64,000 nucleotides of DNA from the NCBI GenBank assembly GCA_029379385.1, contig CM055605.1, forward strand, positions 17,519,001 to 17,583,000, read 5' to 3'. This stretch comes from Quillaja saponaria (lineage: Eukaryota; Streptophyta; Magnoliopsida; Fabales; Quillajaceae). Every line of letters begins with the position of its first letter. Position 1 is the stretch's first letter. Below the pieces are notes generated by a model that ran no database searches, was not told where the DNA came from, and worked only from the letters and a program-made list of their open reading frames with translations. Made by a program: the position numbers and the translations under genes. Positions 34,186 through 62,226 of the stretch are shown here, one piece after another.

Positions 34186-34200
34186 TTGTTATATATATTT
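34186..34200 (+). promoter_or_regulatory. Possible TATA box close to the kinase start
   Basis: GTTATATATATTTTG lies only about 20 bp before the first ATG (34211). If used as a TATA box, transcription would begin near 34215-34225, past that ATG. The Met at 34253 would then be the first translated one. No upstream alternative stands out in this AT-rich sequence, so the call is weak. Confidence 0.25.
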
Positions 34201-34210
34201 TGCTTATTGG

Positions 34211-37200
34211 ATGAATGTTTCCCCAACTTCCTGGCCTAGTTCTCCCTACACAATGAAGTTACATAACTCCCTTTTCTGTGCCCGTTGGTCTACATACCTT
34301 CAACTTCAAGTGATTCTTATCTTCTCTATCAACTTAGCATGGTTGATGCATCCTGTCTACACTTCCATAGCCCCTACAAATGAAACAGACCATCTTGCAC
34401 TACTCAAATTCAAAGAATCAATACACACTGATCCACATAGAATCTTAACCTCATGGAATCACTCTAATCACTTCTGCAACTGGGTTGGAATCACATGTGG
34501 AGTTCGCCATCAAAGAGTCATTTCCATACATCTCCAAGGCTATGAATTGGGTGGTTCAATATCACCTTACATTGGCAACTTGAGCTTTCTTATAAACTTC
34601 ACCCTCCAAAACAACAGCTTCTATGGCCAGATTCCTCGTGAAGTTGGCCGTTTGTTTCGGCTGCAAAAACTTGTGCTTGCAAATAACACGTTGAGAGGGG
34701 AAATTCCTGTCAATTTAACCAAGTGTTCTAAACTTAAGATCGTTAGTGTCGCCGGGAATAAACTGACTGGGGAGATTCCCAAGGAAATTGGTTTCTTGAA
34801 AAATCTTGAAGTGATTCACTTTATGATAAACAATTTGACAGGTGGCATCCCACATTCTTTAGGAAATCTATCATCACTCAGAGTTTTTGCTGCTAGTGAT
34901 AACAATATGGTAGGATCGATTCCAGATGCAATAGGACGTCTGAAAAGGTTATCAACTTTGTTCATTGCGGACAATAAGTTTTCTGGTAAGCTTCCTTCTT
35001 CGCTGTACAATCTGTCATCTCTCATCACCTTGTCATTAGCGGATAACAAATTTGAAGGAGTTCTTCCATACCACATAGACAACAATTTCCAAAATCTCCA
35101 ACAATTCGGCATTTTTGCAAACGAATTCTATGGGACAATCCCAGCTTCATTGTCTAATCTTTCTAAGCTTCTAGTTTTTGACATAGGTGGTAATAAATTT
35201 AGGGGACAAGTTTCTATTAATTTAGGAAATCTACAAGATCTCCAGTGGCTGGGATTAGGACATAACAATTTCGGAAATAATTTGGCTCATGACTTGGATT
35301 TCTTGACATCTTTAGCTAACTGCAGCAAACTTGAAAGACTTAATTTCGCTTCGAATAATTTTGGAGGAGTTTTACCAAACTCAATAGCTAATCTGTCAAG
35401 CCAACTCATTGAGTTAAACATTGGTTCAAACCATATATCTGGAAGCATACCAGAAGGAATTGGAAATTTGATAAGCTTATATTTGCTAGGTATGGAGGAT
35501 AACCTTTTGACAGGAATTATTCCAACCTCTTTGGGGAGAATTCCCTTGCAGTATCTTTCTTTGAGTCAAAACGGCCTGTCTGGACACCTTCCATCCTTCA
35601 TAGGCAATCTTACTAGATTGAACACGCTTTTATTATACCAAAACAAATTAGAGGGAAGCATTCCATCAAGTATTGGAAATTGTCAAAATTTGCAGATACT
35701 AGACATTGCACAAAATAATCTTAGTGGACCTATTCCAAAGCAGATAATTGGTCTTTCTTCCATACTCCTCTTGCTTAATTTATCAGAAAACTCTTTCACC
35801 GGCAGCTTACCTATGGAAGTAGGCAAGCTAGATAATATTAATTTTCTGGATCTTTCTGAAGACAATCTATCTGGTGAAATTCCTGCAACCATTGGAGATT
35901 GCTCAAAACTAGAGTACCTTTACCTACAAGGGAATTTTTTCCAAGGAAACATCCCTTCATCCTTGGCCTTTTTGAAAGGTTTACAATATTTAGATCTTTC
36001 ACGAAACAATTTGTCTGGAGAAATCCCAAAAGATCTGGCAAAATCACATTCTTCAGTATTATATTTGAACCTTTCTTTCAATAATCTAGTAGGAGAGGTA
36101 CCAGTTGAAGGAGTTTTCAAAAATGCAAGTGCTATTTCAGTGACTGGAAATAGTTTACTTTGTGGTGGTCTAGACGAACTTTCATTACCAGCTTGTCCTG
36201 TCGGACATAAAAAAAAAGAAAATCACCATGTGTTTAAATTAATAATTACAATTGTTTCAGTGGCTCTATTTCTTCTTCTTTTGTTATACCTCCTTGCTAT
36301 GTTTTGGATGAGAAGATCAAAGAGGAAGTCATCTTCTACTCAACCAACAATTGAGCAGGTTCCAAAGGTTTCATACAGAATGCTCCATCAAGCAACTGAC
36401 GGTTTTTCTCCCAATAACTTAGTAGGATCTGGTAGTTTTGGCTCTGTATACAAAGGATTTCTTGCTCAAGAAGAAAGAGAAGTTGCTGTGAAGGTACTAC
36501 ATCTCCAAAAGAAAGGGGCATCCAAGAGTTTCATTGCTGAATGCAATGCTTTAAGAAACATCAGGCACCGCAATTTAGTTAAGATCTTAACCTGTTGCTC
36601 AAGTGCAGATTACAATGGCAATGATTTCAAGGCCCTAGTTTTTAATTTCATGGGAAATGGAAGCTTAGAGCAGTGGCTTTATCCTGGAATTGAAGGTGAA
36701 AATGAATCACGGAGATTACACCTTCTTGAAAGACTGAATATTGCAATAGATGTCGCATCTGCATTACATTATCTTCATGAGCAATGTGAGCAGCCAATTG
36801 TTCACTGTGACTTGAAGCCAAGCAATGTCCTTCTTGATAATGACATGATTGCGCAAGTGACTGATTTTGGTTTAGCAAAGATTATCTTTGTCACTAGTGA
36901 GATTTCCCAAAACCAAAGTAGCACACAAGGAATAAAAGGATCAATTGGCTATGCTGCACCAGGTGACACTTTTTATACAACTAGTTGGTATTGTAATTCA
37001 GGACCATTCATATTACTTGGATAGAAACATGCATATTTATGACCTCTTAACATTTCGATATATAATTGCAGAGTATGGAATGGGAGGTCAGGTCTCAACA
37101 AAGGGAGATGTTTATAGCTTTGGAATTCTCTTGTTAGAAATGTTCATTGGAAGAAGACCCACTGAAGACATGTTTAAAGATGGTTTAAATCTTCACAAGT

Positions 37201-37505
37201 ATGCCATGTTAGCTTTGCCAGAAAATCTTTCTCAGATTTTGGACCCAACTCTACTCCAACCAGAAGCAAGAGAAATTCAAAGCCAAATTAATGATGTTGA
37301 GACAGAAATAGAAACAAATTTGACGCAAATTCAAATGAACAGTGAGGTTCAGAAATGCATACTTTCAGTTTTCAACATTGCACTTTCATGTTCATCGGAA
37401 TCACCAAGTGAAAGAATGAAAATCGGGGATGTAACCAAAGAACTGAATCTGGTCAAGAATTCTTTTCTTGGGACCAGAAACCAAGGGGGCAGACCACGGA
37501 CATAA
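34211..37505 (+). CDS. LRR receptor-like serine/threonine kinase, subfamily XII (XA21/EFR/FLS2-like)
   Basis: Two exons (34211-36962 and 37072-37505, GT-AG intron of 109 bp) give 1061 aa. From the N-terminus there is a hydrophobic signal segment (about residues 29-48), an LRRNT cap ending in the paired-Cys 'FCNWVGITC', and roughly twenty plant-type LRRs (NxLxGxIP) up to about residue 630. These are followed by a transmembrane helix (about 677-700) and a kinase domain. The kinase shows the glycine loop GSGSFGSV (about 739), Lys761 in VAVKV, HCD (865-867) in 'HCDLKPSN', DFG (885-887) and APE (916-918). The catalytic Arg is replaced by Cys, so it is a non-RD kinase, as is usual for pattern-recognition receptors of this subfamily. 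The intron splits the APE glutamate codon, a position I recall as typical of the family. It should act at the plasma membrane in immune perception; the ligand is unknown. A second Met at 34253 starts a more typical signal peptide and may be the true start. Confidence 0.93.
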
Positions 37506-44414: not shown

Positions 44415-46550
44415 CTCAATGGTTCTTTTGAATTACTTTTGAAACATCTCTGACTGAAGACACAAAACATAAGCAAATATGAGCACCCAAAGGAGCCAGC
44501 ACAATATAAAGCAAATATTGATGCAGCCTTACCTCTACATCACCAACACTAGCAGTGTGATGAACGATTGACTCATCGTCATTTCCCAGATCATCTGTCT
44601 CATCTGCTCCAGAAGTGTCAGCAGAAGTGGCTGCATCTCCTGAAACTGCAAGGCCCATTGCTTCTCCCAACTTCTGCAAAACATCCTTATCATTCCAGTA
44701 CCTGCAACAAAATAATTTCTATCTTCAGAAAGATGGTTCAAAATAAGCATAAAACATAGCAGTACGACCAATGGATTTTTTAGTATCTAAACCTCATCAT
44801 AGCAGTAGGACCACCGGTCTCTATCTCTTCTAAAATATGCTTCAATGACGGATCTTCCTTAATGCGAGCCATTCTCTCCTCAAGCTGGTCTTTGTTTGAT
44901 GGATTTGTAAAGCTCTCAAGCATGGAAGACATAGATGGATCCTGAGAATATAGATTTTACATTATGTCAACTAAAAGGAAAAACATATAAGATTAGAAAG
45001 AATACTATAGCAAATTTCATATATTACCTGCATTAATGCATTACCCAGGCGTTCAGCCATGGTCATAAACTGAGAATTCTGCATAACCTGTTGCATTGTG
45101 TGTAAATATTGTTGATTATCAAAGTTAGGGATACCTTCTTCCACTGTGGCACCTTGAAAAGTCTTCTGGAGCTGTTCTGCCATCTGATTGAATGAAGGAT
45201 CTTGTGCTATCTGTTCAGCCAATTCCTTAATGCTTGGATCCTATACACACAAAAACAGGTTATGAGTAAGCAATTAAGCAATTTTCTAAGCTACTCTAAA
45301 TTAGTTATATCCTGCGCCCTGCCCAGGTGATCGTGTGAAGGCAAGGCGGTTTTTATTTTTAGTAAGTTAAAAACCTGCTTTTTACAAGTAATCAGGTGTT
45401 GTAATGCAACTCTTTTCTTGATAATAATATTGTAACTGAGTAAATATTTAATGATTATTTCTTCATCGAATAAAAAATTTAACTAACTAATGCTATTTCC
45501 TTCCATTGTGTATAATTAAAGTATTAAACTAACTAATTTTAATCCCTTTTGTTAATCTCTATGTTTAGTTTTATTATTTGTTCCTTAACTCGACTAATAT
45601 ATACTTATTATTCCAATATTGTTGCTTTTATTTATTATTACTAACTTGTTTGTATGTTCAATTATTATGTAGTCATTATAAATGGTGGCCGAGGAGGGTG
45701 CAGGATTAAATAATAATAGAAAGGACCTGGGTTGAAAGTATAACTATCTCCAAGATCCTAAGGACACAAATATTGTTATGTGCGTGTTTTGTTTAAAGGT
45801 GTTAAAGGGTGACATACATAGAGCAAAATAACATCAAACTGGTTACATCAAAGAATGTAAACAAATGGCTGAAATGGCTGAAATGTCCTGAACCAAGTAA
45901 GGAAGGAGCTAAAGCACTATATATCGGAGAATAAAAGTACATAAGAAAATTATGATAAAATGCCTGACTTTGATGATTTAGATCATGAGGTTGTTGAAAT
46001 TGACGAGGAGGAAAGAGGAGGATCGTGTTGCTAGTAATGTTAGAAAGAGAGGTGCATACAGTAACAAATATGAAATTGGTGGAAGTGGAAGCGGTCACTC
46101 AAATTTAATGTCAAAGAAAAAGCGCATAAAAGGTCGAATGGATTCTTTTGTGTATTTGAAGCCAGAGAAAGTACTTCAACAACAAAAACGAGAAAAGATG
46201 AAGCAAGGAAAAATGAACGATTTTGACTAGAGAAAAGAGTAATGACATGAAGCAGGGATTCCTTTCAATGTTGCTCACTTGAATTCTTTTACGTTGATGG
46301 TTAAAGCAATTGGTTAATATGGTCCAAACCAGTATTGTTGAAAGCACGCCTTAAGCATGCCTAGATGCTAGAAGCAAGAAAGGCGCACCTAAAGTGCCTT
46401 GCTTGGTCTAGGCGAGGTACTGATAGGTGAGGCATATGCCTAGCTTGCCTAGCTTGCCTAGGTGCTCGCTTTAGGTGAGGTGCTAGACGGCTGAGGCACT
46501 GTCTAGGCAGTTCCAACTATTTTTTTTTTAGGGCTTTGTTTGTTTGGATC

Positions 46551-46599
<49 letters not shown>

Positions 46600-49500
46600 G
46601 ATGTACAATTTACAAAAGGCATACAAACCTTAAGTCATTCTACTTATAAAAACCACGAGACCTTATTTTTTTTATTTTTTTTTTTTAAAAGAAAAAGAAA
46701 AAGAAAAATATCTAGGATTTAAAAAGATCTAACACAAGAGCTAGTTAAGAACATTCATGGGTTCAAGTTCTACTACTAGGAACCATGCACATGAGCATGA
46801 GAAGTTATTATAAGAAGATGATGAAGGTTACAATTCTAATGATGATGATTGAGGTGATGTTAGTTCAACAAGTATTGATGAGGATGAGACAATGAGTAAC
46901 TCATGAGTAAGACAAAAAACTATTTTTTGAAAGACGTTTGCATCTAAATTTTTTGTTTACTTTCTTGTTTGAACTTGACTTGGAGTTTGAAATGCCTCGT
47001 GTTATTTCATACGCTTTCAATGCTTTAAATCTTTAATACAATGTTTTTTGGGATATATATATATATATTAAATTTAATCCCACATTCCCCCTACCATTAT
47101 ATCTTCTCTTAAGAATATTTTAATTTTTTTTTATTTTTTTTACTTAAGTTTGCCTGCGCTTTATGCCTAGTGCCTAGGCAATAAAAGCCCTTATCACCTA
47201 AATGCACCAAGTGCTTTTTAAGAACATTAGTCCAAACATGAAACCTCCTAATTATCACAAATTAAGAATTTCCCTATTCAAAAAAAAAAGGTGGAGAATA
47301 CTACTGATTTGTTGAATAATCATAACGATGCTTAAGCGAAGTATGGTTATTCTATTATGTCAGAGACAAAAGAAATAGGAGTTTGACGAACTTCTTGGTT
47401 AATTGCCCTAATGGAATAATGTTTGTGTAATCAATTAATGCTTTGTGAAAACAAAAGCGACAATAGGATGAAATCTAAAACTAAAAACAAAAAATAACAA
47501 AGATAGAGAACACAAGATATATCAAGTTTCATCTCAATCTAGTCTACATCCTCAATGAAAGTGATTGAAATTCACTATTCTCTTCAAAAACATACTGAAA
47601 CCCTAGAGCTAACTATCTTTATATATAGGCTACAAAAAAAACAAACCCTATCAGCCCATTCCTCCAGTTCGTGAACTAAAACTTACTTTTCGAGTCATAA
47701 TAATACAACGGATTGCAATGCGAAACTTTAGCCCAACCGAATAAACAAGACTAAAACACAACATGCTGCAGTCAATTCATGAAAAACAGAGAGAAGACAT
47801 GAGTTGCTTGATGAATTTGTAGATCATGTAGGAAAGGGTAATATTATCCTAATTGATAAGTGACAATGGACCTAATTGTGTACTAGAAGGCGAGGGTTTT
47901 CTTTTTTTCTTTTTCTATTTTTTGTACAAAATTAGTTTTAAGTTTAATTTTCTTGCTTATTTATTTTTCATATTATGATTAGATATTGGATAACTTTCAA
48001 ATTGTTGATTATTTTTTATTTTTTATTTTCTAATGATAGATAAGTTGTTAGAAGCAAAGAGATCACATTTATATTGAACACCATGTGTTGCTAAATTATC
48101 TGAATCTTATGTTAGAGGATATTAGGGAAGATTCATAGAGTTTCAAAAACTTTGGAGAGGGCATTATTATTGACAAATTTTATCTACAATCATAAAGTAG
48201 TTTTGAAAATGACGAGGGATTCACACAAAAAAAAAAAAAAGTTGGTGAGGGCTAACAATACCAAATTTTGCACTTCTTATTCGACTTTGAAAAGCATCCA
48301 CTAGCAATGGCAAAACTAGAAAACCTTATTTATTTCCAATGAATGGAAGGAAAGTAAGTGAATGAAGGAGGCAAAAGGAAAGAGAATGAAATAAAGATTG
48401 TTGGTATGTCTTCTTTTTGGAATGATGTTTACTATATCGAGAGATATTTAAAATGATTGATGATAGATGGGAAGTGTCAACTTCATCGACTTTACATGCA
48501 GCTAGTCACTTTTTGAATCTAGAGTACTATTATTCAAACCCAAATTTAGAGTTTAATGCTGAAGCTATAAATGGATTGTATGCTTGCATAATGAGATTGG
48601 TGGAGATTATTTAGAAGTTCAGCTCCTAATCCTTAACAATTAGCAATTAAGATTTTGAGCTTGACTTATAGTGCTCACAGTTGTGAACGCAACTGGAGAG
48701 TGTTTGAACAAATTTATACTAAAAGGAGGAATAAACTGGAACAACAACGACTTAATGATTTCGTGTATGAGCAAGTATAACCAGAAGCTTAAGGAAAGAA
48801 TTGACCGACGTGATGTCATTGATGATATTGATGCCAATAATGAATGGTTAGTTGGAAAAATAGGGAAACCTTGATATTAATGCAAAAGATGAATCAGTTT
48901 TTAATGATGGTGATGATGGCTTGACATGGGGTCTTGTTGCAAGTGCATCTGGCATTGAAGGAGGATAAAGTACAAGGGAGACAAACTAGTATATTAAGGT
49001 CTTAGGCATCAACGTCTTAGCAGATATTTGAGGAGGTAGAAGCTAATTCAGAGGAAACTGAACAAGACAATGTGGATGATTATCAATCTGTAGAAGTTAG
49101 AATGGATGAGGAGTCCAATGATAAATTTGAGGATAATGATACTTAAGTTTATTGGATTTTCAGCATTTATAGTTGTTTATATGTTTTTTTTAATCTCTTT
49201 TATGAGATTTTTAACTTGAAAATGTTGCTTTGATGCTTTCACTTTAAATATGATTTGAAACTATGCTTTTGGTTTTGAAATTTAACTAGGCTCGTTTTAA
49301 TATGTTAGAATGATGTGTATTTCTTTAATTTAAAATTATTAAATATTTATAACGTTGAGTCGAATTATTAATTCAAATATTGTTCTTTTTATTTATTTAA
49401 AGTTTATATAATCACTTGCTTAATTATTCTAATTCAATATTTTATAGTTTAGTATTCATGCTAGAATATCTAATAGAGGTGCCTCTCGCCTCGGGCTATT

Positions 49501-51977
49501 TTGGAATCTATCGCCTTAGGGCCTTTCTCCTGTGACAACATTGCTCTAAATAAATAAAATAAGGAACATTTCTTGTAAAATCACCTAAGTTTTTCTAAAA
49601 TTACATTTGATATTTTTGGCCTCCATTCAGTCCCTCTCTCTAACTCTCTATTCACAAGCACACATGCATGTACAATCATCCACTTGGTGGGTCAAGAACT
49701 CTCATCACCTATCCAAACACTAATGCTATCCTTGGGAGGGAAAATCAGCCATAAATGAAATTGAGATGACAAAAAGAAGCTATGGCAGTAAGGGAGAAGA
49801 AACTCTACTAATGAAGGAAACCTAGCCACCATTACTTTCTCTCTCACCTGCCAACCTGCCTAACTTGTCAGTGGTGGGAGAGGGGGTCATTGGTGCTGGG
49901 TTTGGCAGTAAGTCATTGATCGTCAAATAGGAGGTCTTTCTCCTCGGTTTTCTTCATTTTCAAATACATATCCCTCTCTCTCCTCCATGTGCCACGGCTG
50001 AGGTCGGAGCAAATCAATGTCTCCTCTCCGACCTATTCCACAGAAGGTTGAGTTCTGATGGTGGTCCAGCCAAGCAGCCACTGAACCCTAGCTGATAGGG
50101 CTAGTCCACAACGCTGCCACTAGAAGCCATCAATGGTGAAAGTCCCTAGCAACCTTCCGATATGAAATTCCGAGTTAGCGCGAACGGAGCCTATAGAGTT
50201 AGAAAATTCGCAACAACTGGCCACATAGATTTAGAGTCTCCAAATTCTTTGTGATAACTTATTTGGCAACTGAGAAAGTATGGTTCACATAATAATGTCA
50301 ACTAATAAGGCGAGACAGGCTCCTTTGCAATTTTACGGTTGAGTTCTCTCATCATCTAGGCAAAGTCAGTTGTATTCCATTTAGTTGCATTGAGATCAAA
50401 TAAACTGATGCGGTGCAACACAGCCAACTGCACAATGTATTTGATATGTTTTCATTTATGGCCAGTTGATGCTTGATATCATGCCCCTTACAATATTTTC
50501 TTCCTTACACTCACATGCAAAGGCACTCAGTCAGTCTCACTAACAGACGTCTATTTATAAAAAGAAGGAAAGAATAAGCTTCCAATTACAAATTAGGTAG
50601 AATCAACCAGAATATCCAGCAGCAGAGAGACCTTATCCGACAAAATAATTAATAAAAGACTGTAACATTTGCATTTCTCTTTCAAACTTTGTCTTCTTTT
50701 TGTTTATAGAACTTGGAGAAACAGTGAACTTAACTTCTTGAGCTGAAACACTCACTAATTTGAGACCAAAAGAATACACAAAAATATGAGGATCCTGATT
50801 ATCCATCTCTCCTCTTAAAGGATCTAAAGGCATGACTATCTATGGAGGATCATGCTTATCCATCTCACACACAAAGGCACTCACTCAGTCTCACTAACAG
50901 ATGTCTATTTATAAAAAGAAGAAGCTTCCAATTACAAATCAGGTAGAACCAACAAGAATATCAAGACAAACATGAAGCAGACATAACATAAATCCCAAGG
51001 GAAAGAAAGAAAGAAAATAGCATACATTGAGTAGGCCAGTCATGGCTGAGAAGTCAAAAGGATGGGAAGGAAGGCCAGTTGCCGGTGCAGTGGAATCTCT
51101 TTTTTGTTCCGTCTTCTGCTCCCCAGATGATGTTTCAGATTTGGAAATTTTGTTTCCTGTAGAACCAGCTTTGTCATCTAAAAAAGAATTTGACACGGTC
51201 AAATTAGTATCGTTTCAACTTTCATATTTATTTCTGTGGAAGGGAACAGAGAACTTGGATTCTCAAATGCTGTTAACAGAATTTACAATAAAATTATGTA
51301 AACAAACTAAAATTAAAGAATGCACCACTACAGCAGCACCTCCAATAAAATGGAGGTCATTAAAAGAGAGCAGCAGTTGACGTAAATTTTTTACCTATCT
51401 AATTAGTATAAATAACTTTATGAACTGGTATGCCACAGAACACATTAAAAAGGAAGCCAACACAAAAAAAAAAATAAATAAATAAATAAGGGTTTTTGAA
51501 CTCATGACCACACCCTCCATCCTGGCTCTTAGAGAGGGAGATGCCTACATTTACCGACAGAGCTAATGAGTAAGCTAAAACATTAAAAATTAAACTCAAC
51601 AGATATTCTAATAGGGAGGATAATAAAAACAACGGGAAGAATACAGTGTATCAGCATTTATATCTACTAATATAAGACATGTTACAAATGAATACATATG
51701 CATCAGTTGAAGAAAGGTAACAGTTGGAAGATATGGGTCAGAGGCACATGTTAATCGTATTATCTGCTAAACAATTAGTCCAGGAAGCTCAATACAGTGG
51801 TTTAGTTGTTTATTCCAGAAGCCTTTTATTTGTCATTGTTTATTTTTTCTTTAAGATCGATGAAACACAGAATGGATATCTAATAGGGACAATCAATGAG
51901 ACAGAACCAAATAAATAAATAAATAAATAAATAAATAACATACCAGCCGGAAAGTCTTTCTCCGAATTTGAAGCCAT
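39737..51977 (-). CDS. AKR2: AKR2-type ankyrin repeat chaperone for chloroplast outer-envelope proteins
   Basis: Eight exons on the minus strand, all with GT-AG introns and consistent phases, give 349 aa: 51977-51944, 51177-51026, 45240-45028, 44941-44793, 44701-44533, 40698-40606, 40230-40091, 39836-39737. The order is a polar PEST-like N-terminus starting [11 protein letters not shown], then STI1-like helical repeats (about 50-185, '[11 protein letters not shown]', '[19 protein letters not shown]', 'YWNDKDVL'). Next come an acidic linker (about 200-225) and ankyrin repeats (about 226-345, '[12 protein letters not shown]', '[11 protein letters not shown]', ending LLEKDAFL). Known AKR2 proteins bind nascent tail- or signal-anchored chloroplast outer-envelope proteins in the cytosol, with ankyrin repeats docking on chloroplast lipids. 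Length and motifs fit an intact gene. Introns 2 (5.8 kb) and 5 (3.8 kb) are swollen by transposons. Its promoter and first two exons are copied in inverted orientation at 54450-57036. Confidence 0.95.
40699..44532 (-). other. AKR2 intron 5 (3.8 kb)
   Basis: A large intron without recognisable coding sequence. It holds scattered repeat-like sequence and, near its 5' end, a poly-T run of about 38 bases (about 44377-44414). Phrases such as 'AACACCGGGGTCATTATATA' (about 42619) look like transposon debris, but no family could be assigned. The ORF at 43687-43959 is not convincing. Confidence 0.6.
46330..47229 (+). mobile_element. Non-autonomous hAT element, about 900 bp, with 8-bp TSD
   Basis: An exact 8-bp direct repeat GTCCAAAC flanks it (46322-46329 and 47230-47237), the hAT target-duplication length. 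The ends are imperfect inverted repeats: CAGTATTGTTGAAAGCAC on the left against TAATGTTCTTAAAAAGCAC read from the right. Subterminal parts are rich in CCTAGGCG/TGCCTAGG-like motifs. It contains an AT dinucleotide run and a short acidic frame resembling a transposase tail (about 46815-46905), but no transposase. It sits inside the older hAT pseudogene. Confidence 0.75.
46554..46596. repeat. (AT)n microsatellite
   Basis: About 21 uninterrupted AT dinucleotides within the non-autonomous hAT element. Confidence 0.95.
49150..50510. other. AKR2 intron 2, remaining sequence
   Basis: This holds the 3' flank of the hAT pseudogene, including a GC-richer end 'GTGCCTCTCGCCTCGGGC' near 49480 that resembles hAT subterminal motifs. 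More GC-rich, probably transposon-derived sequence follows (49600-50400) that I could not assign. Confidence 0.4.
50519..50990 (+). repeat. Direct repeat pair flanking a conserved block
   Basis: Two direct copies of about 110 bp (50519-50635 and 50872-50990) share 'CTCAGTCTCACTAACAGA.G', 'TCTATTTATAAAAAGAAG' and 'AAGCTTCCAATTACAAAT'. They enclose the block 50646-50840. The inner copy is also what matches the end of the plus-strand arm near 56920-57036, so the duplication arose in AKR2 intron 2. Confidence 0.75.
50646..50840 (-). repeat. Dispersed block of about 200 bp, copy 1
   Basis: The block matches 57246-57447 in the same absolute orientation. Both keep a minus-strand open frame of 60 or more codons starting MPL(D/E)P and containing GE.DNQD. 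I do not recognise the family. It could be a fragment of a transposon or an inserted host exon. Confidence 0.6.
51473..51585 (-). mobile_element. tRNA-derived SINE in AKR2 intron 1
   Basis: On the minus strand a box A-like 'TTAGCTCTGTCGGTAAATG' is followed by 'GGAGGGTGTGGTCATGAG' and a box B-like 'GAGTTCAAAAACCC', then an A/T-rich tail with AAAT repeats. This is the layout of plant tRNA-derived SINEs. The same element is present at the equivalent place in the inverted copy. Confidence 0.7.
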
Positions 51978-52179
51978 GAGAAACTGTTAAAACGAACATA
52001 AAGTCATATGAATCCTCGTAAATGGAACTTACGAAGATCCAAGAAAAGCAAACTTGAATCTCGTAGGAGAAATCGAAAAAGTCCATTACAGAGACATGAA
52101 TCAAGTCGAAAACTCAGAAAATTAAACGAGAAAATAATAGGGAAACTGGGAGGAAGACAAATAAATTAGAAGAGATTTG

Positions 52180-52340
52180 AGGTCAAACCTGGTCCAATTT
52201 GGTGGATTAAAGGAAAGATAGGAGCCCTCGCGGAGATTTAAAACCACCCCTTCGTGAACGATAGACAGTATCAATATAAAGAACAACAAAGAAGGTGCAG
52301 ACTTTACTTCAGTGACCCATTTAAACCTCATCCTCATAAA
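52180..52340 (-). promoter_or_regulatory. AKR2 upstream region conserved between the two arms
   Basis: This interval, about 200-360 bp before the AKR2 start codon, is one of the best-kept parts of the inverted repeat. Its partner is 55595-55740. It includes 'TTCACGAAGGGGTGGTTTT' and 'ATCTCCGCGAGGG' (read on the minus strand). Both genes therefore start from related promoter and leader sequence. No TATA box could be assigned with confidence. Confidence 0.5.
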
Positions 52341-52377
52341 TAAATAAATGGCTGTTACTATTATCAAATGACCCTTT

Positions 52378-52427
52378 TTCTTTTTCTTTTTTCTTTTTTT
52401 CTTTTTTTCTTTTTCTTTTTCTTTTTC
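52378..52427. repeat. Pyrimidine microsatellite (TTTTTC)n
   Basis: A run of imperfect CTTTTT units upstream of AKR2 that is not preserved in the partner arm. Confidence 0.9.
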
Positions 52428-53804
52428 AAAATTACATGTACCATTCCTGAAGTATTAATATTTTGACAATTTCACCCTATAAAGCATTTTCATAGTCAAT
52501 TTCATCCTATATCTTTAAAATTTGCAATATTTTTCTCAACCTAACACCAATAAAATTTATATGAGAAACATTGTTGTGACATAAAATAAATTTATTGTTT
52601 ACTATAAGTGTTATCTGAGTTGGTAAAAATAAACCAAACTCAATCTCCCCTCTCTTTCTTTCCTCTCTCTTTTATGTGTCTGTCACCCTACCACTTACCA
52701 ATAATGAGCCCAAACATAAAAGAATTTACTTCTGAACATAGAATCCAAACCGAGTCTCACTTACACTCGTCCTCTAATTCCAACACCAGGCCCACCAAAC
52801 TCCATCACTAAAAATCATACAGCAACACCTTATAAAATTACAAACTAAATTTCTACAATGTTGAAATCCAATATGAAAATACCATACTTTTTATTAAAAT
52901 ACAAAAGAAATAACTAATTCAGAGAGATCCAAATCACTGGCGACTAAATAACCAAGGAAAAAAAAAAATGAAGTGAGACTAATGTATCATCTACTATTAT
53001 TTACAGAAAGCAATCCATTCGTGATAAATTTTTTATTTGCATTCACTAATTTTCTGATGGTATAATTTAAATAAAAAGGATGGACAATAATTGTTTTCCT
53101 GTTGTTCTTGTTTAAAATTTCAAGAAGTCATTTATCCAATTTTTATTTTTATTTTTTATTAGATATTAGAGTTAGTCAAAGTGAGTTTTCAATGACCATT
53201 TGTCGCCATTATAAGGAAATTTTTAGTTATTATTATTATTTATGTTTTCTTTTTTTTTGTATGTGGTAAATAGTGTCTTGACAATGTTAACTAAAAGGAG
53301 AATTGGTTAAAACGGATGTGCCAAGAACCTAATGATTTTAGGTTCCATCGACTGATATGTTATTATTTTCTCCTTATGAGCTATTTGTTTCGGGCAATAA
53401 AATATTTTACTCAGGAAAATATAGTTTGTAGTACATTTACGCGAATGTTTGTAAGTTGAAATTTTCACCAAGATAAAATATTTTCTATAGACATTTTGGC
53501 ATTTTTTTGCCTACGTTTTCTATACATTTATGCCAATGTTTGTAATACGGGAATATTATACCCTCTGTGTTAGGTGCCTATATTTTATTCTCACACAGAT
53601 GAAAAAAAAAAAAAAAAGCTACCATAATGCTACAGTACCAAATAAGCATATTGAAAACCAGATAGTCTTCTTCTTCCCCTCCTCCCTTCTTCACCTTCTA
53701 GCAATAACTGGATGTTGAATTATAAATTTCCAACAAACATATTCATGTGCCTTTGGATGGTATTTAGTTGTTAGTTATGTTTGTTTTTTCTTTTCTTTAT
53801 TAAT

Positions 53805-53880
53805 CTGATCGATGGTGGGATTTGAACGTGAGAACATCAAGTTCACATCACATCTCTCTTAACCAATTCTCCTTAGTTAA
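53805..53880 (-). mobile_element. tRNA-derived SINE fragment
   Basis: The minus strand reads 'TAAGGAGAATTGGTTAAGAG' and then 'ACGTTCAAATCCCACCATCG', a box B-like motif. The plus-strand segment 53288-53350 ('AAAGGAGAATTGGTTAAAAC') is a related fragment in the other orientation. Confidence 0.5.
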
Positions 53881-53934
53881 TATTTCAAGAGACAAGACTT
53901 TATCTACTCCATACCAAAAAAAAAAAAGTCAAAT

Positions 53935-54430
53935 GCATTTTACCCTCATGAACTATGAAATTAGGCACATAACCTCTTTATCTAAGTAATAATTAGAAAA
54001 TAGTCCCTAATTATCCATTATATCTAACAATTAATGTAAAATAGACTAAACTATCATTGTTATAAGTATTTTAATATATTTTTCATTTTTTTCTATCAAA
54101 TTGGACATTTTATATTGATTTTATTTAAGTATAATTTATTATATGTTGATAAATCAATCAATATATTCTATATCGGACCGGTATAAATAGTTCAATTGTT
54201 AGAACAAGAAAAACAGAGAGAAAGATAAAAGATGTTAGATAAGTTATAACAATGATAATTTAGTCATTTTGAGTTAATTCATTAGATTTAATAATAATTT
54301 AGATTATTGGATGTTATTTGTCAATTATAACTTAAATAAAGAGTTATGTGTTTAATTTGATAGTTTATGAGACTGTTACAAAATAAATGATAGTTCATGG
54401 GATAAAGTGTAATTAACCTAAAAAAATTCG
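53935..54430. mobile_element. Foldback (inverted-repeat) element
   Basis: The left half 53935-54085 is the imperfect reverse complement of 54195-54420. Paired stretches include 'TCATGAACTAT' with ATAGTTCATG, 'CACATAAC.TCTTTAT.TAAGT.ATAAT' and 'CTAAA.TATCATTGTTATAA'. It is AT-rich without coding capacity and looks like a MITE-type foldback inserted in the spacer. Confidence 0.65.
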
Positions 54431-54449
54431 TTGTAATGATAGATTACGA

Positions 54450-57036
54450 CATCTAGTCACTGAAGACTCGTTTTGATCAACTCTAATATCTAATAAAAAT
54501 AAAATAAAAGTTGGATAAATGACCTCATAAATCTTTGATCAAGAAAACAATTATTGTTCATCATTTTTATTTAAACTACACCATCAAAAATCAGTGAATG
54601 CAAGTAAAAACACATATTACGAATAGATTGCCTCCTGTAAATAATAGTACCCCAAAGTCAAGCACCACTGCGTGTCTTTAACGAAGTTCTGTGAGCCATA
54701 GAAAGAAAAAATTTCAGTAAGTTATCTCAGTCAGGACTCAACAGTATTTGAGTAGGTCAGCTCCTTGATTGTAACAAATTTTTTTTTTTTTTTTTGAGGC
54801 GAGAGCAGTTTAGAAAACAGAGAAAGGTAAAGCATAACATCATAATTCAAGGGAGAGAGACATAAGGAGGGAGAGGAAAGAGGGAAAGGGGAGGATGAGT
54901 TTGATTTATTTTTTCCAACTAAGATAACACATATAGCAAACAATAAATTTATTTTAAGCCACAATAACATTTTTCATCTAAATTTTATTGGTGTTCGGTT
55001 GACAAAAATATTATAAACTTTAAAGATATGGAATAAAATTGACCAAACAATTATTTACAGGATGAGATTGACAAAATATTAATACATAAGGAACAATATA
55101 GTTAATTGTGAAAAAGATAAACAAAAGAAAAGAAAGATGTAGTAAAATGGTCATTATCAGTTTGATAATGGGAACAACTAAAGCGGTTCGGTTTTGAAGA
55201 TTTTTATAGTTAATAATGATTTTGATTTATATTCAATTTCGATTATCTTGCTATTATTGTAATAGATTCGAACTAATAAGTTTCATTCGAATTGAATTAT
55301 GTTTAGTTTTTTATTGAACTAAATTTTAAATAAAAAAAATTGACATGTACCTACAAAATAAGTCCCAACCTAAAATAAATAAATCACCTTAAAAAATATA
55401 TATTAAGTATATATATATATATTGGCTTGGTTTTGATTAAAAAAAGAGAATATTTAATAAGGGAAATGAATAATTCAGTTACTAAAAAAAGGAAAAGAAA
55501 AAAAGGTTTGTTTTCAATTTAATTTATTAAAAATGTGTTGGGTTTTGATTCGATTTTCGATTATAAACGACCATTTATTTATTTTTTATAAATTGGGTCA
55601 CTGAAGTGGAGCCTTCATGTTTGCTGTTCTTTATATTATTGATACTGTCGTTCACGAAGGGGTGGTTTTGAATCTCCGCGAGGGGCTTCTTTGTTTCCTT
55701 TAATCCACCAAATAGTACCAGGTTCGACCTGGAATCTCTTCTAATTTATTTTTTTTCCTCCCAATTTCCATATTATTTTCTCGTTTAATTTTCTGAGTTT
55801 TCGACTTTGATTCATGTATCTGTAATGGAATGGACTTGTTCGATGTCTCCTACGAGGATTCAAGTTTGCTTTTCTTGGATCTTCGTAAGTTCCATTTGCG
55901 AGAATTCATATGACTTTATGTTCGTTTTAACAGTTTCTCATGGCTTCAAATTCGGAGAAAGACTTTCCGGCTGGTATGTTTTATTTATTTGGTTCTGCCT
56001 CATTGATTGTCCCTATTAGATATCCATCTCTGTGTTTCATCTGATGCTTCATCGATCTTAAAGAAAAAATAAGCAATGTCAAATAAAAGGCTTCTGGAAT
56101 AAACAACTAAACCACTGTATTGAGCTTCCTGGACTAAGTGTTAAGCAGATAATACGATTAACATGTGCCTCCGACCCATATCTATCAACTGTTACCTTTC
56201 TTCGACTGATGCATATGTATTCATTTGTAACATGTCTTATATTATTAGATATAAATGCTGATACACTGTATTCTTCGTGTTGTTAGTATTATCCTCCCAA
56301 TTAGAATATCTGTTGTGTTTAATTTTAATGGTGTAGCTTATCATTAGCTCAGTCTGTAAATTTAATACAGATAAAGCACCTCCTCCCTCTCTAAGAGCCA
56401 GGATGGAGGGTGTGATCATGAGTTCAGAAACCCATTTTTATTTTGTGTTGTCTTCCTTTTTAATGTGTCAACGTCTGTTACATACCCGTTCATAAAGTTA
56501 TTTATACTAATTAGATAGATAAATATTTTAGGTCAACTGCTGCTCTCTTTTAATGAAGTCCATTTTATTGGAGGTGCTGCTATAGTGGTGCATTCTTTAA
56601 TTGTAGTTTGTTTACATAATTTTATTGTAAATTCCCTTAGCTGCATTTGAGAATCAAAGTTCTCTGTTCCCCTCCACAGCAATATGTAGAACTGCAAGAA
56701 AGTTGAAACGATACTAATTTCATTGCATGTCAAATTCTTTCTTAGATGACAAATCTGGTTCTACGCAAAACAAAATTTCCATAACTGAAACACCATCTGG
56801 GGAGCAGAAGTCGGAACTACAAAGAGATTCCACTGCACCAGCAACTGGCCTTTCTGCCCATCCTTTTGACTTCTCAGGCATGACTGGCCTACTCAATGTA
56901 TGTTATTTTCTTTCTTTCCCTTGATATTTATGTCTTATCTGCTTCATGTTTGTATGGATATTCTGGTTGGTTCTTCCTAATTTCTAATTGGAAGCTTCTT
57001 CTTTTTATAAATAGACATCTGTTAGTGAGGGGAGTG
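54450..57036. repeat. Right arm of the large inverted repeat (captured AKR2 5' region)
   Basis: This is the inverted copy of 50890-53215. Similarity ends near 57036 within what was AKR2 intron 2, where copia-derived sequence begins. It carries the promoter, exon 1, SINE-containing intron 1 and exon 2 that now form the 5' end of the downstream RHIP1-like gene. Confidence 0.9.
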
Positions 57037-60000
57037 TTGAGAGTTTTAATTCTTGAATTGTATTTGTCCTAGCTTTGGCATATTTATGCTCTAGTTTGAG
57101 GGGGAGTGTTGGAGTATATTTAGCATTAAGTTATGTTGGGTGTTAAGTCTCACATAGTTTAGATAAGCAAGTCTTATGTGAGTGCTCTATTATAAATATA
57201 TAGCTTTGGTGTAGTCTTGGGATCTTCCAAACTACTACTCTTTCTTTATAATTAATAGAAGAATGCAACATTTGCATTTCTGTTCCAAACTTTCCCTTGG
57301 TTTTGTTCATACAATTGGAAGAGACAGTAACAATAAACCTTAACTTCTTGATCTAAAGGACTCGTTAAGTTCAAACCTAAAGACTCCAAAAAAGTTAGAG
57401 AATCTTGATTATCAGTCTCTCCTTCCCAAGGTTCTAAAGGCATGACTATCTCTGGAGGTTGGGAAAAGATGCCTCAGCTAGAGCAAACAATGACATCTTG
57501 AATAGTGTTATGAGTTATGACAATTAAAAGTGGAATTTGAGCGAAGTTAATTAATTAACAAGTCTCCTTACTCTGTATCGAAGTTGCTTTCTAATTCTTC
57601 ACAAATAATTAATAAACCCCTACTTACGTAGCAACAAACGAATCATTTGAATCAGAGGAAAATAAAGCAACCTTGACAAAATCAAAGTGTGCAGTACCCA
57701 GAGCACTATGTAATTTGAAAAGAAAAAAGAAAACCTTGGAACTGAAACAACTTTGAAATCAACTATATCTGTTGTTTGACTCGTTTTATATAATCTCCAG
57801 TTTTGTTCAGAATATCTTTACCCGAAAGATAATTTGCAAATGGTTGATTTATCTGCATTTCATTTTTTTTGTAATTGGCTGGTTTGGATTTTGTATTTGC
57901 TCGGACACTTGAATGTATAAAAATATTTTCAGCATGGTAGTGTGATATAGTACTATGCTTCTTCTTATGGTTAATAATTGTGCATATCTTATCTTGTCGA
58001 AGAGTGGCATGCAAACACCTTCAAAGTTGGATGTGATTATTTTGTCCCATTTATGTATCCGTAATCGTTATTGATGAATTTTGAGAAATTCTACCTTATT
58101 TGGAAGCTTGTTTCCAATTCTAATTTTTTTTTTTCATTAATTTTATCCATTGGCATGACAATTTGACCTAGTAAAGGGTTGAAGTGTCATTTTCTACCAA
58201 GCCGTCTACTTGTACAAATTCGGTATTTTCCATTTTTTTTTTCTTTCTTCTGTCCGGATGCAAACCAAGAACTTCTTAATTATTTACATTAATATTTGCA
58301 TGTGTTAAAGAGTTATGGGTGGAATTCATTGTCTTAAGCCACTGGAGAGTTGATATATAACACTTTATCAATTCGTAGAGAGTTAGTTGGGAAAGTAGGC
58401 CACTTCTACAAATTGTCAGGCAGGCAGCAAGAACAACAGACTGTGTTGTTTTCCCAACGGAAGTCATGTGACTAGAGTTTAAGATGACTGGAAGTAAAAA
58501 GTTTCTCTTTGATATTCTATATATGGACCGTGGTGCAGTTGTGAAGGTAGGTTGCTTGTTAAAATCGTCAAGCAGACAGGAACTATCCATTGTTCATTGT
58601 AAATATGCTCTCCCCAAAGGAAGTCATGCAAAAAAGCTGTTCAAATAATGAAAATATTCTATTTTTTAATCAATAATTTGTATAGAAGCTGTGGTTCTTA
58701 CAAGTGATGCTATTCGAGAAAAGGATTGAAGCAATATAGTACCAGAAGGAAAAACTATTTAAAAAAAAATATTTATATGATTTTTATTTCTTTTGGTTCA
58801 ACTCATTTTAAATAATCTTATGATTTATTATAAGAATATCTTTAACCCATAAGATAATTTGCAAAAAACTATTTAAAAAAAAATATTTATATGATTTTTA
58901 TTTCTTTTGGTTCAACTCATTTTAAATAATCTTATGATTTTATTATAAGAATATCTTTAACCCATAAGATAATTTGCAAATGGTTGATTGGGTTGGCATT
59001 TCCTTGATTTTGTAAATGGCTGGTGTGAATTTTGTATATGTTTGGACACCTGAACGTATAAATATTTCCAGTAATGTGGTATTGAAGTATGCTTCTTTTT
59101 ATTTTAAAAATTGTGGATATCCTGTCTTGTGCAAGAGTGGCATGCAGGCACATTCTAAGTCAGATCTGATTATTTTGCAGGGTATTTTGCCTCAAGCAAT
59201 ATCCCATTACAGAACATATGAAGATGCTTTCTTTAATAAAGTTAAAGGTGATTTATGATGATTTGGTATCAATCATTAAACATGCCATGCTCACGTATTC
59301 CGTATGTGTGATATCTTCAGCAAGTGCCTTACAATTAACCATGGCCAATGATGTGCGAGTTGTTTTAATTTGGGATTAACTTTTGTTTGTTTTTTGATCT
59401 ACTTATGATGTTACCTCCTTTTACAGATGAGTTGATAAGTGCGAGGGAACATCCAGCTGAAACTATAGGGATCACTATTACTGCAGGCCTTCTATTTATG
59501 CGAGGTGTGGTTTTGATCTTATGCATGTTCCAGGTTTTTGTTCTTTTTAATATAAGCTTCATGGTTTCTGCACAGCTGTAGAAAAGGAGAATGATATTTT
59601 CTACACTTTGGAGTATTGGTGTCGTTGAGTTAGGTAGAATCAACATTACAGCTGTTGTGATAAGTAGAATCTACACGCACTTACAAACATTGAGTTCTTG
59701 CTATGTGTTGCAGTTTAATTGAATATCATTCTTGATCTGTTCATTTTTGGTCCCTTATATTATTTTCTTTCGAAATGTTCTGTTGAATGTTAATTCATCT
59801 AAACATGATTTATTTGCTTCTTGGACCAGTTAGATTTTGCCTTGTATAATGAAGCTAAAATATTTTAGGATTTTGTGTTTTCTGCAGGACCAAGAAGATT
59901 TTTGTTTCGTCATACATTGGGTCGACTGCGGAGTGAGGAGGTATTTCTCTGTCAAACAACCTAGAGGTTTCATTATCCTATACAGTTAGTTATACATTGT

Positions 60001-62226
60001 TCCTTATTATTTATGATGTATAACTTAATCTTCTAACATAGTTATCTAAATCACATTGACAAGCCGCTCGAACCAGTTCAACTTCATTTTTTGTGCAAAA
60101 CATTTGTGTTAGCCATGCAGTGCATAAGACTTAAGAATACTATGATGAAATACCTCATATTTCTTGTTCTCAAAGTCTTGAAACAATGTACTGTTAAATG
60201 AAGAATTCATACCACCTCTATTATGTTGGCTTTCATTTGAATGTAATGTTGTAGGATGACAATGCCATTGTTTTGTCACAAACACAGAAATGCATACCAA
60301 TTTGATGTTGTTTTTGTTGTTGCTTTTTTGCATGTGCACCTAGATGCACATGCATGAGATCTATAGTTGAAGATTTTAGTTCTTTCTGCTTTTTTCTTTT
60401 TCTTTTTTCACTTAAGGTAGCTTAAATTGAAGATCTTAGCATCATTCACTTATGACATATCACTGATATCAAATGCTGTGACATAAATCCAGTACTTAAA
60501 CAACTAATGAGTCATTCTAAGAAGCAAAACAATGATAGTAGAAAGAAATTATTTATTAATTTTTCCTAGTTTTAAATTGGTTTCCACACCCGTTGGAAAA
60601 ATAAATACATAAAGAAGACACGTAAAAATGGTGTCCGAGTTTGAAGCCTATGGAAATGCTATAAACTATTGAAGTCATTTTGGATTATGATCAGTAATCT
60701 GATATATATCTTATGTGGTTTAAAAATATTCCAAACTTTGTCACTAAAGTTTATGATTCCAGATTTGGTGGTAAAATCCATTCATGAAACAAGATTGTCT
60801 ACAAGGGTATCTTTTTTGGGATAAAATTGTTTTTCATGATTCTTTTTGTGCTTTGTTCCGGGAGCGTCTCAAGGTGTTTCTTAAGTTGATGTGCAACAAG
60901 ATTGAAGAGCCCTATTGTATTAAGCTCACTCATTTTTCCATTTTTATTTCTGTTTGGTACTTCTTGTCTTCTTTTTCCCTATTAAGAAAAAAAAAAAAAA
61001 AAAAAAAAAGAAAAGAAAAGAAGAGAAAAAAAAAAGACAACTAGTAGCATGCATATGTTGGCTGTGTAAAAGTAGGAAGCCTTGAACCAGAGATCACATC
61101 TTATTTTCTTTTTTAAACGTTGTCTATTTTTTTGTCTCACCTTTTCAATCAATAACTATGATTCTATAGTTCCTCTTACTCTTTGTTTTGGTTAGGTGAT
61201 TTGTCATTATGGTATTTTCTCATACATAATAGTGTTTTCAGTTTAAGATTTGTCTGTCTTTTTAATACTTATTAGTCATACTATTTTAATAATCAAAACT
61301 TAGAAATTGAGTAACGTTTTTTAAAGTTATTAAAAAAGTCTAACCTTTCAACACCTTGGTTCTTTCTGTTAACATTGGTTTACTTTTATATAAAATGTTG
61401 TTTCCTGACATCTCTAATGGATTTTCCTTCTTCGCATTTTTTTTTTCTGGAATCTTTCTGAAGGCCCAGTATGCCAGAGCTGAGAAAAATGTGAAGGAGT
61501 TGAACCTATCAGTTGATTTAATGAAGAAGGAGAGTCAAAAATTGCTAGGAAGAGCCTCTTTTGCAGAGAAGGACATGAATTACGGGCATAACGAACTGAA
61601 GTATGAGTATTACGGTTAAGTAGTGGTAGTATAGAATTTTTATACTGCATGCTGAATATTTATATTAATGTACATAGGAATACTGGAACTCAAATTCAAC
61701 GTCTTGCAAAATCAGTTTACAAGGCTGAAACTCAAGTTGCAGGTATGCATATCTCTCATATATTGTCTCATCCTCTTCCTCTCTCCATTTTCTATTTTGG
61801 TTATTTTGTATTTGCCTGAGGGACACAGCACACAGGAGAATTCTTAGGGCATTTTTCTTTTCCTTGGCTGCTATTTGTGTTGTTATAATTTGTTTTATTA
61901 AGTCTATCAAATTCTTGATTTGAGGCTACGATGGTGGTGAGAATAAATAGCAAATATAACATTTGATGGACATTGCACATTCTGTAGATTTGATGGATAG
62001 GCTGCGGGATACACCAGGTCGGGAGGCTTTGACACTTCGAGCAGAAGTAAGTCTAATTTTCTCTTGTTATTTCTTGAACCATACTAGATTTTTGGTAAAA
62101 TAATTAGTTAAATGTTGTTATCTGCCTCACGGTTAGGCTGCTTCTATGGCATCGGCTTTGAAGCGACAGAGGGCTTTGCTGAATAAACGGATACTGAAGA
62201 TTTCTGAGTTGGGAGTATCTGTGTAA
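55940..62226 (+). CDS. Predicted chimeric gene: AKR2 N-terminus fused to RHIP1-like protein
   Basis: Nine exons with GT-AG junctions and matching phases give 244 aa: 55940-55973, 56746-56897, 59181-59247, 59427-59504, 59888-59940, 61464-61600, 61678-61742, 61988-62046, 62137-62226. Residues 1-62 come from a copy of AKR2 exons 1-2 ([11 protein letters not shown] ... [11 protein letters not shown]). Residues 63-244 are a RHIP1-type body: '[20 protein letters not shown]', a hydrophobic patch '[20 protein letters not shown]', helical '[18 protein letters not shown]', '[20 protein letters not shown]', and a C-terminus ending [13 protein letters not shown]1 of Arabidopsis is reported to interact with RGS1 and hexokinase 1 in glucose signalling. 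The expected RHIP1 first exon was not found. No stops or frameshifts are present. Alternatively, translation could begin at the in-frame ATG at 59016, read through to exon 3. Expression is unknown. Confidence 0.8.
56330..56440 (+). mobile_element. SINE copy in intron 1 of the chimeric gene
   Basis: This is the counterpart of the SINE at 51473-51585. It has the box A-like 'TTAGCTCAGTCTGTAAAT', 'GGATGGAGGGTGTGATCATG' and the box B-like 'GAGTTCAGAAACCC'. Because it sits at the same intron position, the insertion predates the inverted duplication. Confidence 0.7.
57037..57245 (+). mobile_element. Truncated copia-like 3' end at the duplication breakpoint
   Basis: A polypurine tract TTTGAGGGGGAG is followed directly by TGTTGGAGTATA (57107), the usual start of a copia LTR. 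The sequence continues 'AAGTCTCACATAGTTTAGAT' and 'TATTATAAATATATAG'. Only the 3' end survives. It abuts the point where the AKR2-derived arm stops. Confidence 0.65.
57246..57447 (-). repeat. Dispersed block of about 200 bp, copy 2
   Basis: Copy of the block at 50646-50840 in the same absolute orientation, so antisense to the host gene here but sense there. The minus-strand frame ([14 protein letters not shown]...) stays open over about 60 codons. Its family was not recognised. Confidence 0.6.
57834..59175 (+). repeat. Duplicated segments within intron 2 of the chimeric gene
   Basis: The segment 57834-58045 recurs at 58976-59172 in direct orientation ('TTGCAAATGGTTGATT', 'GGACAC.TGAA.GTATAAA', 'AAGAGTGGCATGCA'). 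A unit of about 113 bp is tandemly repeated, almost identical, at 58752-58864 and 58865-58979. A weaker pair is at 58330-58460 and 58545-58640. The duplications run up to the acceptor of exon 3. Confidence 0.75.
60985..61036. repeat. Poly-A / A-rich tract
   Basis: A run of about 24 A followed by AAAAG units in intron 5 of the chimeric gene. The associated ORF (60784-61044) may be a decayed retroposon 3' end but shows no assignable domain. Confidence 0.7.

Follow-up and report, generated by a model that had tools for sequence, protein, structure and literature searches.

Chimeric genes that arise through partial duplication are a known type of event. The cited part of the work on Oryza records 310 fusion genes in four species, more than 44% of them expressed, with a main structural pattern in which a parental gene is first duplicated and then fused (PMC9199173), and the cited part of a study of Drosophila yakuba describes tandem duplications, in a population sample, that shuffle regulatory elements and create chimeric structures (PMC5460883). 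The Quillaja saponaria locus described here would likewise be a plant gene fusion yielding a new gene, although it involves genes other than those of Oryza and its hybrid is predicted from the DNA. It shares with the D. yakuba chimeras the reshuffling of regulatory DNA into a chimeric structure, whereas its duplication is inverted, 8% diverged and in a plant.

AKR2 is a chloroplast outer-envelope targeting factor and RHIP1 is a partner of RGS1 and HXK1. AKR2 has been described as binding chloroplasts via its C-terminal domain (PMC4010795). For Arabidopsis, the relevant part of Huang et al. (PMC4602111) names only one protein other than RHIP1 (At4g26410) with an RHIP1 domain, At2g45060, and 60.8% identity is given between VvRHIP1 and AtRHIP1 in the section cited from PMC10112684. 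In the window, the whole stretch of 64,000 nucleotides that was analysed, an AKR2 gene stands head-to-head with a copy of its own 5′ half, which lies upstream of a RHIP1-like gene body (Table 1). We consider it rather probable, judging from the sequence, that the copied promoter drives an in-frame AKR2/RHIP1-family hybrid born of this inverted duplication.

Table 1. Coordinates of the AKR2 donor, the duplication arms and the putative chimeric gene.
Feature	Position	Strand	Basis or remark
Intact donor AKR2, 349 aa	39737..51977	-	Exon model; type by PDB and Pfam matches
AKR2 exons	51977-51944, 51177-51026, 45240-45028, 44941-44793, 44701-44533, 40698-40606, 40230-40091, 39836-39737	-	
Arm A, AKR2 5′ half and upstream DNA	50890..53320	-	BLAST pieces
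Arm B, the copy, with inserts	53849..57029	+	BLAST and alignment; outer breakpoint 57029 matches 50890
Copied AKR2 proximal promoter (putative)/5′UTR, 279 bp	55661..55939	+	271 aligned bases, 93.4% identical to minus-strand region upstream of AKR2 exon 1
Exon 1, AKR2 exon 1 copy with start codon	55940..55973	+	34/34 identical to 51977-51944
Exon 2, copied from AKR2 exon 2, phase 0 at its end	56746..56897	+	152 nt, 14 substitutions, no gap
Fusion intron, 2283 bp	56898..59180	+	AKR2 intron 2 remnant to 57029, then other pieces
Transposon-like remnant in fusion intron	about 57027-57311		By eye
Exon 3, first of RHIP1-like body, phase 0	59181..59247	+	Top-ranked acceptor
Exon 4, moderately hydrophobic stretch	59427..59504	+	Model; hydropathy
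Exon 5, basic stretch after hydrophobic one	59888..59940	+	Model
Exon 6, putatively helical/coiled-coil-like	61464..61600	+	Model; weak sub-cut-off Laminin_I match
Exon 7	61678..61742	+	Model
Exon 8	61988..62046	+	Model
Exon 9 with stop codon	62137..62226	+	Model

The AKR2 donor and its inverted copy

The type of the donor was checked independently. Its product combines an STI1-type region (STI1-HOP_DP, PF17830, at residues 155-199) with C-terminal ankyrin repeats matched by Pfam ankyrin models, and among its 48 PDB matches 5eid_A (query 214-349) and 4tum_A (query 221-349), both carrying the name 'Ankyrin repeat domain-containing protein 2', rank 4 and 5; the remaining three of the top five are ankyrins and a DARPin-type design. 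The best Pfam stretches listed for AKR2 all lie at residue 155 or later, with none in residues 1-62.

The main BLAST block pairs 55556-57029 with 52368-50890 in inverted orientation (E reported as 0.0), which is far beyond chance, and with the intact donor still in place it bears out the earlier proposal that the upstream exons of the chimera are an AKR2 5′ copy made by inverted duplication. The arms span 2.4-3.2 kb and are separated by a 528 bp spacer; the innermost piece, 53246-53320 with 53927-53849, is short, 75% identical and absent from a second alignment. Two haplotypes joined head to head during assembly might also place such arms in one spot, but this is hardly credible here: apart from exon 1, the two arms show differences of ~7-25% depending on the segment, far above haplotype expectation, the inserts of the two arms are different, and AKR2 exon 3 onward continues from arm A only. 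A copia-like label at the breakpoint was based on polypurine/TG motifs recognized by eye. Pfam gave no match bearing on transposon identity for the translations of 57252-57473 and 50633-50839, and in AKR2 intron 2 a hAT dimerisation match (E 0.18) and a HetE-N match (E 0.027) both fell below cut-off.

Arm identity reaches 98% over a 124-bp block around the 5′UTR and exon 1. Together with the length of the arms, this could make the inverted repeat mainly a source of small RNAs, with read-through transcripts folding into a hairpin that regulates AKR2; young MIRNA genes were reportedly made, in one study, by inverted duplication of their targets. We regard this as very improbable, since the sense transcript of the copy has AKR2 sense and alone gives no duplex, a hairpin transcript must traverse the spacer, and in the window no Rfam family reaches its gathering score. 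A search of the window for tRNA genes also found none.

Structure of the putative chimeric gene

The chimeric structure is well supported at the DNA level. Its 5′ part (55661-57029, plus strand) is a duplicate of AKR2 sequence, and the donor gene can still be identified nearby. Its 3′ part comes from a different gene, with one open frame and usable splice sites; to regard this 3′ part as a gene in its own right is to rely on the open seven-exon model and the presumed family resemblance discussed below. The nine-exon model on the plus strand has a CDS of 735 nt including the stop and encodes 244 residues, a 62-residue AKR2 N-terminal tail followed by the 182-residue RHIP1-like body. An earlier note on this DNA had described an identical 34-bp exon 1, an exon 2 of unchanged 152-bp length without frameshift or stop, seven RHIP1-like exons downstream on the same strand, and junctions that keep GT-AG and phase throughout. 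All of this was reproduced, with 0 differences in exon 1, 14 differences and no indel in exon 2, the seven exons at 59181-62226, and GT-AG at 8/8 introns. The exon boundaries of the body were placed by hand and fitted to GT-AG and frame, so these two properties of the body hold partly by construction. The claim that the fusion is in frame without repair also stands, exon 2 ending and exon 3 beginning in phase 0 with usable splice sites, although taken alone this match is a 1-in-3 coincidence. The exon 2 donor scores 7.0, its AKR2 twin being among the training donors.

Within the body the other two frames contain 15 and 14 stops, and when non-coding pieces of matching lengths were joined at random, 0/5000 of the resulting sequences were open, a null that ignores the hand-chosen body boundaries. 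Codon usage, trained without the body, gave 10.6 for the body frame against 13.2 for a reverse-complement frame with 8 stops and a null maximum of 12.3, and exon 59181-59247 scored -1.9, below background. The hydropathy maximum of the hybrid lies at residues 95-109 (mean 1.53).

The body is a putative member of the RHIP1 family (UCP022280) and presumably stands closer to the second family type, At2g45060, than to RHIP1 itself. The reading of it in the earlier note as a 5′-truncated RHIP1 copy is tentative. It may belong to the At2g45060 branch, and a partnership with RGS1 and HXK1 is therefore not to be assumed for it. Pfam returned nothing above the curated cut-off for the 244-residue hybrid, the best match being Laminin_I (19.3 versus 34.6 bits, residues 117-225), and a PDB search found no match better than E 0.073. 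Among the 4 Pfam families matched at E up to 1 no ankyrin model appears, so the hybrid lacks the AKR2 C-terminal chloroplast-binding domain. A search for relatives in viral contigs produced 17 pattern matches, 0 of which were confirmed.

Divergence of the copied exons

Between 55840 and 55973 the copy shows 3 mismatches in 133 positions with its AKR2 counterpart. Intron 1 is 91.8% identical (60/731 sites differ), and exon 2, with 14/152 sites differing, has diverged like this intron (p 0.63). Its changes comprise 12 nonsynonymous and 2 synonymous substitutions (dN 0.090, dS 0.047), and purifying selection on exon 2 was sought and not found, dN/dS being 1.9 and not different from 1 (Fisher p 0.52). 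Freedom from both indels and stops would be expected by chance in ~7% of cases (0.116 x 0.613), and that no frameshift is present says little about function. Identity between the arms drops from 92% close to the gene to 75-85% at greater distance, intron 1 exceeding both the distal block (81.1%, p 4e-6) and the centre block (85.1%, p 0.007). Given this gradient and the intron-like divergence of exon 2, gene conversion from AKR2 could have held or restored the open frame, which would weaken the argument from missing frameshifts.

The same observations suit a body that is a dead or dying RHIP1-family copy, truncated by the rearrangement, in front of which the AKR2 piece lies by accident, its frame open from youth or from conversion resetting exons 1 and 2. 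The neutral look of exon 2, the identity gradient expected from conversion near the gene and body codon usage that is not clearly coding all favour such a history. Seven body exons free of stops and frameshifts, next to heavily interrupted alternative frames, speak against it, and we judge it distinctly unlikely.

The fusion intron and the search for a native first exon

The acceptor at 59181 ranks first of the 131 AGs in 56960-59260, with a score of 12.5 against 7.4 for the next, and exon 3 thus looks made to accept an upstream exon. A first exon and promoter of the body's own, short or untranslated within 57030-59180 or further off, would leave the AKR2 copy untranscribed or merely adjacent; we judge this to be unlikely, though of some weight, as a gene's own 5′ exon may be short or untranslated. 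The scan of 57030-59180 for ATG-to-phase-0-donor exons of at least 60 nt yielded six candidates, all scoring at most 0.2 and all rejected, compared with a best of 3.9 on the opposite strand (n=7) and -3.4 in intron 59941-61463 (n=8). AKR2-copy exons 1 and 2, which were close kin of training exons, together scored 18.5, and the contrast with the best native candidate tells against a native exon. No coding-like segment above cut-off appeared on either strand of 57030-59180 in a scan that missed 5/9 exons of the model. Because short exons escape that scan and the background of the native-exon scan included 57040-59180, part of the scanned region itself, a native exon may have been missed, and short or untranslated ones are compatible with the results.

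Exon 3 can also be extended upstream in frame by 55 codons (59016-59180) beginning with an ATG, a point in favour of a native start. As the main start, read-in from 59016 was rejected: it scores -10.6, and its frame is not kept in a 78% duplicate, at 57764-58044, of the surrounding stretch (58899-59177, ending just before the acceptor); there it lacks an ATG and runs into a stop after about 22 codons. The strength of the acceptor likewise favours splicing over read-in.

Discussion

We favour an origin in which an inverted duplication of the AKR2 5′ half, comprising upstream DNA, promoter, exons 1 and 2 and the start of intron 2, would have set a copy in head-to-head orientation to AKR2, immediately ahead of a RHIP1-family gene body, which by inference lost its native first exon. 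The copied promoter, if active, would produce a transcript in which splicing across 2.28 kb links the exon 2 donor with the first remaining exon of the body, and the AKR2 start and RHIP1-like body would probably together make one new hybrid protein. The body would retain its own hydrophobic/basic and helical region, and AKR2 would supply the control of expression, a start codon and a tail that changes quickly, rather than AKR2 function; we infer the joined transcript, the hybrid protein and its expression pattern alike. The hybrid resembles AKR2 in residues 1-62, the start codon and the promoter, all of which AKR2 donated, and differs from it in having no ankyrin match. It is like the RHIP1 family in the presumed resemblance of its body and unlike it in that a native N-terminus was not found and an AKR2 tail stands in its place.

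A bolder reading, to which we give little credence at present, is that the only functional copy in the lineage of a RHIP1-family protein of the sugar-signalling type no longer has its native promoter and N-terminus and depends instead on the duplicated AKR2 promoter and tail, its expression tied to chloroplast outer-envelope biogenesis, with conversion between the arms keeping the promoters alike while the tail changes fast.

Donor, duplicate, breakpoint and acceptor gene all lie within 22.5 kb, so that each step of the proposed birth, from promoter capture through phase-0 intron fusion to possible later conversion, can be read in one DNA stretch. If the hybrid were the sole family copy left, it would represent an unusual replacement of promoter and N-terminus in a conserved gene, and so more than an extra gene.

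Results

The hybrid model joins copies of exons 1 and 2 of a complete minus-strand AKR2 gene to a body of seven RHIP1-like exons. Its introns are GT-AG in 8/8 cases, and the earlier claim of GT-AG at every junction with a frame of 735 nt (244 aa) was reproduced, the body exon boundaries having been placed by hand to satisfy GT-AG and frame. One frame of the body has no stop, against 15 and 14 in its two other frames, and an open frame arose in 0/5000 random concatenations, a null that ignores the hand-chosen boundaries; both results speak for a working gene. Codon usage of the body frame, with AKR2 and a neighbouring receptor kinase as training set, scores 10.6 (null mean -21.0, null maximum 12.3), and one reverse-complement frame of the body, with 8 stops inside, scores higher at 13.2.

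Principal features of the locus
Feature	Position	Strand	Remarks
Chimeric gene model, nine exons	55940-62226	+	joined frame 735 nt, 244 aa
AKR2, complete, eight exons	51977 down to 39737	-	349 aa
Arm A of head-to-head inverted duplication	50890-53320		BLAST pieces
Arm B of head-to-head inverted duplication (AKR2 copy)	53849-57029		BLAST pieces

With a threshold of E 1e-30, the AKR2 product matches 48 PDB sequences. Ranks 1-3 go to ankyrins and a DARPin-type design; 5eid and 4tum (‘Ankyrin repeat domain-containing protein 2’) rank 4 and 5, each in a single continuous match to the query (residues 214-349 and 221-349 respectively); Pfam returns STI1-HOP_DP and ankyrin models. These sequence matches support the typing of the donor gene as AKR2. 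Its intron 2 (45241-51025, about 5.8 kb) contains degenerate transposase-like open frames with a weak hAT dimerisation match (E 0.18, under the cut-off). An LRR receptor kinase gene (34163-37505, + strand; LRR and kinase Pfam models over 34163-37021) runs on into a second open frame, and 438-33241 holds many long dispersed direct-repeat families (43 in the window, 20 of them among the matches listed; identity between copies 60% or more) that resemble units amplified locally.

The two arms are separated by a 528 bp spacer, the innermost arm piece being short and weak (75%, 81 columns) and absent from the separate arm alignment. From the proximal promoter to the breakpoint they share 92.1% identity across 1320 aligned bases (upstream 93.4%, exon 1 100%, intron 1 91.8%, exon 2 90.8%, shared start of intron 2 90.9%), and three farther-upstream blocks share 75.2%, 81.1% and 85.1%. 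Intron 1 differs at 60/731 positions against 54/285 in the 81.1% block (p 4e-6) and 30/202 in the 85.1% block (p 0.007). Since a single duplication without later exchange is expected to diverge evenly in unconstrained DNA, this unevenness suggests either that the stretch close to the gene underwent gene conversion or that the duplication was stepwise. DNA without counterpart in arm A is also present in arm B, including about 400 bp around 55140-55550 and a self-complementary foldback element at 53945-54371 (69%), which we term MITE-like. Identity stops at 57029 (counterpart 50890), directly past which TG follows on runs of purines (57027-57043 and about 57096-57108), a pattern read by eye as a copia-type element 3' end; a 76% direct repeat flanks both arms on the outside (50645-50848 and 57248-57458).

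Exon 2 differs from its AKR2 counterpart by 12 nonsynonymous and 2 synonymous changes (dN 0.090, dS 0.047, Fisher p 0.52) and diverges at the same rate as intron 1 (p 0.63), a pattern neutral or against a working gene. The intron indel rate predicts 2.2 gaps per 186 coding bases, with a probability of 0.116 for none, and 39% of random 14-change sets create a stop in exon 2. Jointly, a neutral copy would be expected to keep its frame in about 7% of cases, more often with conversion from AKR2, so the lack of disruption in exons 1-2 gives no more than mild support for a working gene.

The copied exon-2 donor is in the right phase for the body and scores 7.0, its AKR2 twin being among the training donors. 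Across the 2283 bp fusion intron, acceptor 59181, scored on a weight matrix for which the 14 remaining acceptors of AKR2 and the chimeric model, without 59181 itself, were the training set, reaches 12.5 and ranks first of 131 AGs within 56960-59260 (runner-up 7.4); the exon at 59181 thus looks built for joining to an upstream exon. The fusion intron also contains a stretch duplicated at 78% (57764-58044 and 58899-59177), the second copy ending just ahead of the CAG of acceptor 59181 and the first lacking the acceptor. Two tandem copies of a unit of about 115 bp, 99% identical, lie at 58750-58980.

That upstream exon might instead be a native first exon of the body. An ATG-to-donor scan for one gave six candidates with a best score of 0.2, the controls giving seven on the opposite strand (best 3.9) and eight in another intron (best -3.4), on a background that is partly the scanned region itself; the AKR2-copy exons score 18.5, helped by kinship to the training set. 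No coding-like segment exceeded the cut-off on either strand of 57030-59180, in a scan that overlooked 5/9 model exons; both scans are weak tests. Read-in from the in-frame ATG at 59016, a 55-codon extension of exon 59181, was rejected as the main start: the stretch scores -10.6, and its 78% duplicate has no ATG in the same frame and contains a stop.

Discussion

The label RHIP1 for the body, given in the earlier note and kept here, is putative, and the protein may resemble the At2g45060 type more than RHIP1 itself. Searched with the hybrid protein, neither Pfam nor PDB recognised the RHIP1 family. In Arabidopsis, Huang et al. (PMC4602111) count a single further protein, At2g45060, with the domain of RHIP1 (At4g26410). 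Because RHIP1 of grapevine and Arabidopsis share 60.8% identity (PMC10112684), a true orthologue should be easily recognised by sequence.

Plant fusion genes are common as a class, with 310 across four Oryza species, more than 44% of them expressed (PMC9199173). Duplication-borne chimeras with altered expression are known in Drosophila (PMC5460883). A review of partial and chimeric duplicates (PMC3449122) reports that, of 23 C. elegans pairs at first taken for chimeric, 43% turned out on comparison with an outgroup to be partial duplicates with recruitment. No paper on an AKR2/RHIP1-like fusion was found among the matches listed from the open-licence literature; the present fusion is well preserved, and fusion by duplication is already known as a type.

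The AKR2-derived part of the hybrid comprises 62 residues with no Pfam domain, the best Pfam stretches shown for AKR2 starting at residue 155 (STI1-HOP_DP) or later. As AKR2 binds chloroplasts through its C-terminal ankyrin domain, according to the review PMC4010795, such binding is not expected in the hybrid. By the same review, what AKR2 recognises in its clients is a hydrophobic segment with positive charge after it. In the hybrid, basic residues come after a moderately hydrophobic stretch of the body (residues 95-109, mean hydropathy 1.53), a layout that might resemble this client signal, offered as a thought rather than a finding. In both arms an open frame other than that of AKR2 enters exon 1 from upstream and passes through it (55789-56019 and 51880-52113); it may affect translation of an mRNA whose start lies upstream of this frame. 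The best-preserved part of the copy is the promoter/5'UTR end (3 mismatches in 133 bases, 55840-55973), and the copied promoter and 5'UTR would confer AKR2-like expression on the hybrid.
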